From NCBI RefSeq assembly GCF_002355275.1, contig NZ_CP023449.1, forward strand, positions 372,001 through 436,000: a stretch of DNA of 64,000 nucleotides, read 5' to 3'. The position numbers and the translations under genes were made by a program. Every line of letters starts with the position of its first letter. The stretch's first letter is position 1. Positions 46,485-61,335 of this stretch are shown piece after piece. The stretch comes from Rhizorhabdus dicambivorans (lineage in GTDB: Bacteria; Pseudomonadota; Alphaproteobacteria; Sphingomonadales; Sphingomonadaceae). The notes below the pieces were generated by a model that searched no databases, was not told where the DNA came from, and was given only the letters and a program-made list of their open reading frames with translations.

Positions 46485-46708
46485 CCGGTTGCCGATAGGC
46501 GGGCGCGGCGCCGCCCGCAACCGCGATGCGCGACCGCGCGCACGGCTTCGTTCGGGCTGCGTTCAGATTGGGCGTGTCCTACTGCACCCATCCGGCAACG
46601 GATACGCGGGGACCGGACTGGCAATTTCCACCCCTCGGGAGACGCTCCTTCGGGGTTCCCTTTCCCCGGGGAGCGCTTTCCGGGGTGGGGGGTAACCCTC
46701 TCCCATCT

Positions 46709-47091
46709 TCATGGGAGAGGGTTGGGTGAGGGTCTTCTTCTTTCCTGGGCTTCGGCTTGAAGTGCGCTCAGCAGGGTCGCCAAAACGCCTTCGAAATTCT
46801 CGATCACCTCGTTGTTCCAGAAGCGGATGACGCGATAGCCTCGAGTTTCGAAAAGGCTGTCCGGCGCGCGTCGGCTTGCTCGTCATGCTGCCCGCCGTCC
46901 AATTCGACGATCAGCCTTGCTTCGTTGCACAGGAAATCGACGACGAATGGGCCGATCGTCGACTGCCGCCGAAATTTGAAGCCACCAAATCGGCGCCCTC
47001 TCAGCGCCAGCCAGAGCGTGCGTTCGACGTCGGTCATATCGCGGCGAAGGCGCGCGGCGTGGGGACTGATCTGACGGCGAAGGGGATGCAT
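46709..47091 (-). pseudogene. DUF559 (Vsr-like endonuclease fold) gene broken by one frameshift
   Basis: The first 80 residues match DUF559: MHPLRRQISPHAARLRRDM, then ERTLWLALRGRRFGGFKFRR, then FVVDFLCNEARLIVELDGGQ, HDEQADARRTAFS. The matching then jumps to another frame near 46846-46854, where ETRGYRVIRFWNNEVIENFE and GVLATLLSALQAEAQERR continue to a TGA inside the left flanking repeat. One missing base explains this. The nuclease-like core (E-x-D-G-G-Q-H) is intact; without the repair the product ends after about 95 residues. The gene is enclosed by perfect inverted repeats. It could be a sequencing error or true decay. Confidence 0.78.
46713..46736. repeat. Left inverted repeat of the DUF559 cassette
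   Basis: GGGAGAGGGTTGGGTGAGGG followed by TCTT, the exact reverse complement of the right repeat. It also forms the 3' side of a hairpin (CCCTCTCCCATCTTCATGGG) that contains the gene's stop codon. Confidence 0.85.
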
Positions 47092-47108
47092 GGATAAAGG
47101 GTAGAAAC

Positions 47109-47132
47109 AAGACCCTCACCCAACCCTCTCCC
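47109..47132. repeat. Right inverted repeat of the DUF559 cassette
   Basis: AAGACCCTCACCCAACCCTC followed by TCCC, 17 bases upstream of the DUF559 ATG. It continues into a hairpin, CTCTCCCGC-GAAG-GCGGGAGAG. Confidence 0.85.
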
Positions 47133-47214
47133 GCGAAGGCGGGAGAGGGCTAAGAAGGGGGTTTCGCTCCCCGCTTGTCCCCCTCACGCTTTTGTGGAAA
47201 AGCGCCGCCATCCT

Positions 47215-51014: not shown

Positions 51015-52784
51015 TCAGTCCACCCGCCGCCACATTCTCAACCTGTCGGTGCCGAGCGGCACCGGCTCCAGCCAGGCGGGTGCCTCGCCCTTCAGCAGCC
51101 GTGCCATCAGCCCGCCGGGGGCCGCGCGGGCATAGAGAAGCGCCTCATGGCCGGCGGGATCGATCAGCAGATAGGCCATATGCCTGTCGCGCATCAGCCG
51201 ATGGGCTGTCCCGGGCGGGCCGAGGAAGGCGTCGATCACCCGGCGCATCGCCGCCCGCCCGCGATGGTGGCCGCTCGCGGCATAGCTGTGCGGGGTCTCG
51301 ACCAGCAGGCGCGGGGTAAGGTCGAGGCCGGTGAGGATGGTCGCGCGCGGCAGCCGGGCGAGCGAGGCGAGGCTGGCGCAGGGCGCCATGCACGCCGCCG
51401 TCTCCGATGAAGCATCCGCTACATTTCGGGGAAAGCCGGCCAATAGCAGCCCGCCGGCCAGCATCGCGCCGATCGGCGAAAGCGCGACGATCGCCGCCAT
51501 CGATCCGATCACGCGAAAGGCGGGATAGCGCCACGCGCCGACCCTGTCGCGCGCGCGGCCGAGCAGCCAGGCGGCACCGGGCAGCGCGCAGCCCTGCGCG
51601 AAGCCGCCCGCGCGCTGGACGAGCAGCGAAACGGCATAGGCGGCGAGCAGCAATCCGAGCATCGCCAGCCAGTTGCGCGCGGCCGTCCCATCGGGCGCCC
51701 GATCCGCCGCGTGCCGCCGGGCGAGCAGCGTGCCGGCGATGCCGACCAGCGGGAAGAGGATCAGCACCAGCGCGTCGCCCGGATCCTGCCGCCAGAAGGG
51801 CAGGCCCTCGCGCACCTTTTGATACCAGTGGTGGCGGACCACCGGATCGAGCTGGCCGAACGGCCCGGCTAGGCAGGCGGGGGCGGTGGCGGCGAGCAGG
51901 GCGATGCCGATGCCGCCGGCGACGAGCAGGCCGGCGAGGCGCGGCGCCAGGCCCGATCGCGCCGTCACCCGCACCGACAGCGCGGCGAGCAGCGGGCTGA
52001 GCAGCAGCGGTCCGAACCAGCCCGGGCTCACCGCGTCGCACCAGGGCTGGGTCCAGCCGGCGCGATCGTGCAGCGCCGCGAAGAGGGCCAGGGTGGCGAG
52101 GCCGAGCGCCGCGCAGAAGGCGCCGAAGCGGCGCGCCTCACCCCAGATCAGATAGCGCGCGGCGAGCAGCAGCGCGATCGCGGCGGCCATCGGCAGCGCT
52201 TCGAGCGAGATCGCCAGCCAGAGGGCGGTGGCGATCCCGGCGATCACCCCGCCGCGCCCCTGCCTCGGATCGAAGCAGGCGGCGATGGCGAGCAGGCCGA
52301 GCATCGTCTGCCAGCCATGATGGTCGATGCGCAGCGGCAGGACATGGAACAGCAGCAGCGGCGCGGTCGCCGCCAGCATCGCCGCGAGCAGCGCCACCCG
52401 GCGATCGGCGAGCCGGGCGGTGATCAGCGCCACCGCCGACAGCGAACCGGCGAGCGTGACCAGCGGCACCGCCGAGACGGCGATCCGCTCGGCCGCCCAG
52501 GGGCCGAACAGCGGCTGGAGCAGCAGGATCAGCCCGGCCAGCGGCAGATCGACGATCCGCGACCAGTGCATCGGCACGCCGCCGGGCGGATCGATGCGAT
52601 ATTGGGTGACGTCGAAGAAGCCTTGCCCACCCAGCCAGTCGCGGACCTGCTGGAGGCGGAGATAATCGTCGGGATCCCACATCTCCAGCCCGGCGATGTG
52701 CGGGCGGGCGATCCAGAGGAGGATGGCCGAGGCGAGCGCCCAGATCAGGGAGACGCCGAGGAGAAGACGGGGACGGGACATCAT
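51015..52784 (-). CDS. STT3-like GT-C membrane glycosyltransferase, paralog 2
   Basis: A 589-residue polytopic protein clearly related to the one at 44.7-46.5 kb. It has WDPDDYLRLQQVRDWLGGQG, then MHWSRIVDLPLAG and LPLRIDHHGWQT, the same three motifs in the same order and with the same spacing. The D-P-D-D acidic motif and DHH suggest STT3/AglB-like chemistry. Two consecutive ATGs can serve as start, and both touch a paired-palindrome repeat (GGGAG right before). Alanine- and leucine-rich throughout, with periplasmic C-terminal domain. Role inferred. Confidence 0.66.
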   Translation of the reverse strand: MMSRPRLLLGVSLIWALASAILLWIARPHIAGLEMWDPDDYLRLQQVRDWLGGQGFFDVTQYRIDPPGGVPMHWSRIVDLPLAGLILLLQPLFGPWAAERIAVSAVPLVTLAGSLSAVALITARLADRRVALLAAMLAATAPLLLFHVLPLRIDHHGWQTMLGLLAIAACFDPRQGRGGVIAGIATALWLAISLEALPMAAAIALLLAARYLIWGEARRFGAFCAALGLATLALFAALHDRAGWTQPWCDAVSPGWFGPLLLSPLLAALSVRVTARSGLAPRLAGLLVAGGIGIALLAATAPACLAGPFGQLDPVVRHHWYQKVREGLPFWRQDPGDALVLILFPLVGIAGTLLARRHAADRAPDGTAARNWLAMLGLLLAAYAVSLLVQRAGGFAQGCALPGAAWLLGRARDRVGAWRYPAFRVIGSMAAIVALSPIGAMLAGGLLLAGFPRNVADASSETAACMAPCASLASLARLPRATILTGLDLTPRLLVETPHSYAASGHHRGRAAMRRVIDAFLGPPGTAHRLMRDRHMAYLLIDPAGHEALLYARAAPGGLMARLLKGEAPAWLEPVPLGTDRLRMWRRVD

Positions 52785-52927
52785 CTCCCGTCCCGCCTGC
52801 GGGAGAGGCCGGGGGTGGGCGCGAGCGTAGCGAGCATCTTCGATCGTCCCGTTGAACTCCGTGAAGGGGCATCGAGCCCTTTCACTCCGTCACCCAACCC
52901 GGCCCCTCCCTTGAAGGGAGAGGGAGA
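52784..52927. repeat. Paired-palindrome repeat resembling the DUF559 flanks but without a gene
   Basis: The left arm (CTCCCGTCCCGCCTGCGGGA, then GAGGCCGGGGGTGGG) and the right arm (CACCCAACCCGGCCCCTCCC, then TTGAAGGGAGAGGG) are inverted copies with about 70 bases between them. The CACCCAACCC / GGGAGAGG core is shared with the repeats around the DUF559 gene. It fills the whole gap between the STT3-like gene and the flavoprotein gene. Confidence 0.7.
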
Positions 52928-61307: not shown

Positions 61308-61335
61308 CCCTCTCCCCCGCCGGGGAGAGGGTTTT
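61308..61335 (+). terminator. Rho-independent terminator after the EF-hand gene
   Basis: A perfect 10-bp stem CCCTCTCCCC / GGGGAGAGGG with a 4-base loop CGCC is followed by TTTT. The stem shares the CCCTCTCCC palindrome with the repeats near 46.7, 47.1 and 52.9 kb. It ends two bases from the stop of the leftward tetR gene. Confidence 0.82.

Follow-up and report, generated by a model that had tools for sequence, protein, structure and literature searches.

Is a small nuclease gene between inverted hairpin repeats only a chance neighbor of these repeats, or do gene and repeats together make up a mobile element? The question is raised by a locus of Rhizorhabdus dicambivorans (assembly GCF_002355275.1, contig NZ_CP023449.1, positions 372,001-436,000 of the forward strand). 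This stretch of 64,000 nt is referred to as the window, and all coordinates below are window coordinates, with position 1 as its first letter. The original prediction, made from the sequence alone, described a DUF559 (PF04480) gene between exact inverted repeats in the layout of REPIN elements and their RAYT transposases, with the nuclease in the place of the transposase, and proposed that DUF559 proteins could mobilize or maintain the repeats.

The exact 24-bp inverted repeats that had been predicted (46713-46736 and 47109-47132) were confirmed with exact coordinates. They are the core of a longer 47-nt inverted repeat (87%, 46693-46739 and 47106-47152). The claim that each repeat is half of its own hairpin also held, and both hairpins (46694-46706/46711-46723 and 47124-47134/47139-47149) are perfect. 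Each 24-bp core runs from the 3' arm of its hairpin through a 2-nt spacer to a second G-rich strand, GGGTGAGGG, on the side of the gene. With up to 3 mismatches allowed, the window contains two copies of the 20-mer CCCTCACCCAACCCTCTCCC, where 0.01 would be expected. Two recurrences of the core had been predicted. The gene-less one held, as a degenerate pair, whereas the one described as a stem at 61308 held only in part, being a bare hairpin without the third strand that probably lies outside the repeat system (Table 1).

Table 1. Features of the DUF559 cassette and related repeats in the window.
Feature	Position	Strand	Description
Left end	46694..46739	+	Hairpin 46694-46723, spacer, third G-rich strand GGGTGAGGG at 46724-46732, then TCTTCTTCTT facing the gene; BoxC/intrastrand-triplex type
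Right end	47109..47149	-	Same motif as left end: third strand 47113-47121, hairpin 47124-47149
DUF559 (PF04480) nuclease gene	46709..47091	-	Start at 47091, stop at 46711-46709 in the left hairpin, one frameshift near 46852-46861
Whole cassette	46693..47152	no strand	Missing at the orthologous intergenic site in 6/13 congeners; opposite orientation in congener G008
Gene-less pair	52784..52927	no strand	Degenerate, core as in the cassette
Hairpin	61308..61331	no strand	Perfect hairpin CCCTCTCCC..GGGAGAGGG without third strand

A second dispersed, GC-rich element (46590-46682) adjoins the cassette; it is found at many loci across the genus with about 80% identity, and overlaps a weak, below-threshold Rfam match to BjrC80. 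No family reached its gathering score in the Rfam search.

A single DUF559 gene had been predicted to fill the space between the repeats, starting 17 bases from the right repeat and stopping inside the left hairpin. Both ends were confirmed, but they are not in one frame. Translation from the start codon terminates at 46804, the stop codon in the left hairpin belongs to the next frame, and the above-cut-off Pfam match to DUF559 is split between two frames (46852-47064 and 46760-46861). This copy thus carries a frameshift, which reflects either decay or a sequencing error. Elsewhere, many DUF559 ORFs (e.g. L024:1477-1857) read into the downstream repeat, leading to stereotyped C-terminal tails such as RPSPNPLPHAGEG.

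The arrangement is not peculiar to this locus. The four DUF559 genes of this genome are each enclosed by inverted hairpin repeats, and the repeat sequence differs from pair to pair. Among Sphingomonadaceae DUF559 genes with enough flanking sequence (genus and family combined), 86 of 99 carried a flanking inverted pair, and for 82 genes neither arm was more than 120 nt away from the domain. Of 84 genes from named genomes and plasmid records, 58 were bracketed, including 39 of the 64 outside sphingomonads, with hosts in Planctomycetes, Chloroflexi, Acidobacteria, Deinococcus, Azospirillum, Legionellales and Gastranaerophilales. Most DUF559 genes thus do have such flanks, as the original prediction would require. 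Loci were chosen by protein similarity and not by their flanks. The family set leans to the best-scoring matches, so that the fractions are not population frequencies. The genome scan used a single protein as query. About one third of the DUF559 genes outside sphingomonads had no detectable paired flanks (e.g. E. coli ycjD, Synechocystis, Dokdonia), suggesting that some have been domesticated, or that the association decays. In phages, only two distant DUF559 matches were found.

Other genes of the same loci were never bracketed (0/98 neighbor genes in Sphingomonadaceae, 0/137 control ORFs in named genomes and plasmid records, 0/235 together), and flanks that were cross-paired between loci matched in only 12% of cases. 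Chance and GC-richness are ruled out as sources of the flanks by dinucleotide shuffles, by the neighbor gene controls and by the cross-pairing. GC-richness is further ruled out by host genomes of only 35-39% GC, in which the ends are nevertheless GC-rich.

Repeats and enzymes also vary together. Protein identity correlated with repeat similarity in a Mantel test (r = 0.385 in the family set, 0.25 overall, p = 0.001, 132 cassettes), and repeat similarity was 0.68 for nearest-protein neighbors compared to 0.35 for random pairs. This co-variation shows that the repeat sequence follows the DUF559 tree, each clade having its own repeat. Within an end, the third strand reads as a mirror image of the hairpin's purine strand, in which each A is matched by A or T. 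The partnership holds class by class, with GGGAGAGGG accompanied by GGGTGAGGG, GGGGAGGGC by GGGGTGGGC, and GGGGGAGGA by GGGGGTGGT. Counting only arms for which the two orders differ, mirror order was better than direct order in 58 vs 15 arms (p = 4e-7), and perfect in 45 vs 6. The p-value is optimistic, because arms related by descent are not independent. Classes with an extra inserted hairpin (L002/L003 type) fall outside the fit of this simple mirror test.

A text search for the repeat sequence led to the work of Holder et al. (2015; PMC4666352) on the BoxC or PIT element, also TM_ECO, an intergenic intrastrand-triplex motif present in more than 260 genomes. A perfect hairpin with a mirrored third strand is the mark of this motif, and the repeats described here satisfy it. 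At the level of the sequence motif, the cassette ends are the BoxC/PIT/intrastrand-triplex motif of E. coli: both have a hairpin of Y-tract and R-tract with a third G-rich strand, occur in inverted pairs, and are intergenic. Triplex formation has not been demonstrated for the cassette ends, and in vitro it was shown for the E. coli motif only (PMC4666352). The same paper describes the motif as unassociated with mobile elements and without a gene partner, whereas here it is paired with DUF559; its main text mentions neither ycjD nor an endonuclease. Knowledge of such repeats goes back to the 1990s; hundreds of bacteria contain them in abundance, and they have been linked to genome instability. 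To our knowledge, neither their origin, nor an enzyme acting on them, nor their means of spread has been identified.

The DUF559 gene of E. coli is ycjD, located between sapF and fabI. The repeat just downstream of it is identical to TM_ECO no. 9 (CCCTCGCCCCTCTGGGGAGAGGGTTAGGGTGAGGGG). A matching upstream end is missing at ycjD, which therefore looks like a decayed or domesticated member of the group. Repeats of the ycjD type were present in 4,704 of 5,426 E. coli genomes, at a median of 12 places, and are also present in strains for which no ycjD locus was detected. We considered ycjD as a clean strain-level empty site and rejected it, because the ycjD-less strains examined differ by a larger replacement beside sapF. 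In a Klebsiella pneumoniae record (L236, cysP to Dyp-type peroxidase), a decayed, unannotated DUF559 gene is followed by BoxC-type repeats.

Evidence for dispersal came from copies, empty sites and remnants. Sphingomonas cavernae contains three cassettes that are 96-97% identical over about 511 bp. They sit at unrelated loci, and their homology stops at the repeats. At the window site, the congeners without the cassette have a short spacer that lacks these repeats, and others carry unrelated repeat pairs. At a second site, of glyQ-glyS type (L002), the cassette occupies about 458 bp in this genome where relatives have a junction of type TGATCATG. It is intact here and in two relatives (G001, G005), decayed in two (G004, G010) and reduced to a gene-less pair in another (G011). 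Three genomes have the clean empty junction (G009, G002, G008), with G012 similar, and other species have other repeats at the same point. Empty-site polymorphism among relatives, an expectation of the original prediction, was thus present at both loci examined. In this genome, gene-less pairs outnumber gene-bearing ones and have a uniform inner spacing of 47-55 nt, like a miniature cassette. These patterns show that DUF559 cassettes disperse; movement itself has not been observed experimentally. No target duplication was recognized at the empty sites examined, where the exact ends of the element are not fixed. In Azospirillum plasmids the locus was kept in all close records, so that there is no strain polymorphism to exploit.

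Other repeats use the same insertion points. A different inverted palindromic pair, GTCATCCCGGCGAAAGCCGGGATC, is found in other congeners at the glyQ-glyS-type site (L248, L247, L251) and at L076, and yet another inverted pair, CGTTCGTGTCGAGCGTAGTCGAGACACG, occupies the former site in G003 (L254).

REPIN-like pairs suggest a RAYT, i.e. Y1 HUH, transposase (PF01797) as an alternative enzyme. This genome (G000) encodes none. Among 120 Sphingomonadaceae genomes, Y1 was missing in 97 and DUF559 present in 103. Of the 40 genomes with the window-type repeat, 26 lacked Y1 and one lacked DUF559. The repeat was found in 39/103 genomes with DUF559 vs 1/17 without (p = 0.011), which supports the original prediction without being decisive, and in 14/23 genomes with Y1 vs 26/97 without (p = 0.003). 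As both enzymes correlate with it, repeat presence alone cannot identify the enzyme. In our judgment, it is the flanks that discriminate. None of 18 Y1 genes of relatives was flanked by these repeats, and Y1 genes that do have paired flanks have different ends, such as GGTGACAGTTTAC. Two Y1 loci (L279, L276) have inverted flanks that are perfect or nearly so (AATTACGGTGACAGTTTACTTAACCCC in L279) and differ from DUF559 ends.

The protein itself has the features of a nuclease. Residues E23, D52, E63, H69 and R77 were invariant in 29 of 29 aligned DUF559 sequences. We infer from the sequence that they are candidate catalytic residues, as expected for an active nuclease; cleavage is untested. An AlphaFold model (pLDDT 86.8) matched, in this order, 3hrl (NGO0050, a DUF559-type protein), the homing endonuclease I-Bth0305I (3r3p; TM 0.66-0.68 on the query, 19% identity) and Vsr (1vsr), so that a Vsr/I-Bth0305I nuclease fold is predicted. 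I-Bth0305I shares with DUF559 both the fold and membership of mobile DNA, and therefore provides a precedent for this fold in mobile DNA. It differs in being intron-borne, and is not known to be flanked by repeats of the cassette kind. Vsr shares the fold as well, and Caulobacter VsrA, which carries a DUF559 domain, has a genetic link to cytosine methylation (PMC12907096). In contrast to the cassettes, these proteins have been studied as mismatch repair enzymes linked to cytosine methylation, and the VsrA paper mentions no flanking inverted repeats.

The reading that we consider best, at a probability of roughly 0.74, is that the window cassette belongs, as a decayed copy, to a widespread family of small mobile elements, in which a DUF559 nuclease of Vsr/homing fold acts on triplex-forming ends, with gene-less BoxC pairs as derivatives. 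Gene-repeat pairing across phyla, co-variation, multi-copy dispersal, empty sites, gene-less pairs, invariant residues and fold similarity are shown, whereas binding, cleavage and movement by the nuclease are inferred. An intact element would consist of a single gene, encoding a DUF559 nuclease of roughly 110-150 aa, between two inward-facing inverted copies of the hairpin with third strand. The nuclease would recognize the end motif of its own clade in folded form, probably during replication or repair, when the DNA is single-stranded, and would nick or cut there, at a bond that has not been determined. The element, or a gene-less pair in trans, would then be copied or excised into other intergenic sites with the help of host repair. 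Gene-less BoxC/PIT/TM repeats would be non-autonomous derivatives, related to the cassettes as REPINs are to RAYTs. A bolder version, which we consider somewhat more likely than not, is that DUF559 proteins are the transposition enzymes of an unrecognized, phylum-spanning class of triplex-ended elements, with the BoxC/PIT repeats found in E. coli and in hundreds of other bacteria as their non-autonomous copies.

The likeness to REP/REPIN-RAYT (TnpA_REP) systems comprises inverted hairpin pairs, an enzyme gene flanked by its own repeat type, gene-less copies, and repeat-enzyme co-variation. In contrast, DUF559 cassettes have a PD-(D/E)XK nuclease of Vsr fold rather than a Y1 HUH transposase, and triplex motifs rather than GTAG-tagged REPs as ends. 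Because the defining transposase is absent, the system is not a REPIN/RAYT system, and the predicted resemblance holds in the sense of working alike, not of membership. The proposal that DUF559 could mobilize or maintain the repeats is supported, and reaches far beyond this locus, although movement of the repeats by DUF559 remains an inference. The three refutation tests named in advance (flanks of DUF559 genes, repeat versus DUF559 presence, empty sites) were all run, and none refuted it.

The main alternative, which remains possible, is a homing-type drive. The nuclease would cut sites that are cassette-free or bear palindromic repeats, and recombination repair would copy the cassette in, without transposition chemistry at the ends. 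In its favor, the solved folds that come closest, apart from the DUF559 protein itself, are those of I-Bth0305I and Vsr, and the same intergenic points bear cassettes, gene-less pairs or other repeats across species. Against it, non-allelic movement is needed to account for three near-identical copies at unrelated loci and for gene-less pairs across genomes, and homing alone leaves the paired ends and clade-specific repeats unexplained.

It is unlikely that DUF559 genes are mere passengers, trapped between triplex repeats whose movement depends on host recombination or on some unidentified enzyme. The excess of gene-less pairs in this genome and the persistence of repeats in E. coli strains without a detected ycjD locus would fit. 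However, no other gene of the same loci is bracketed (0/98 and 0/137), each DUF559 clade has its own repeat sequence, and the pattern recurs from Planctomycetes to GC-poor Gastranaerophilales. Even less plausible is a resident Vsr-like mismatch repair gene with the repeats as its regulatory or terminator elements. The methylation link of VsrA (PMC12907096) speaks for it, but the variable presence of the gene, with several paralogues per genome, and the empty sites and dispersed copies speak against it, as does the lack of promoter or terminator activity of BoxC/PIT elements (PMC4666352). Finally, an ordinary REPIN system moved by a RAYT is suggested by the REPIN-like inverted pairs and the correlation with Y1 presence, but is practically ruled out by the absence of Y1 from this genome and from 26 of the 40 repeat-bearing family genomes, and by Y1 genes of relatives that lack these repeats or have other ends.

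The original prediction knew of no established description of the DUF559-repeat pairing. The open-access literature that we searched contained no paper linking DUF559 to these repeats, which does not exclude a description elsewhere. The pairing gives the BoxC/PIT/triplex repeats a testable enzyme and, if our reading is true, gives a function to a large family of "unknown function", whose members include E. coli ycjD and NGO0050, for which a structure has been solved. The pairing is also relevant to studies that treat DUF559 proteins solely as mismatch repair enzymes. If true, the reading would add a type of mobile element built on a DNA repair/homing fold instead of a transposase, in which a DUF559 enzyme probably spreads triplex repeats through bacterial genomes.
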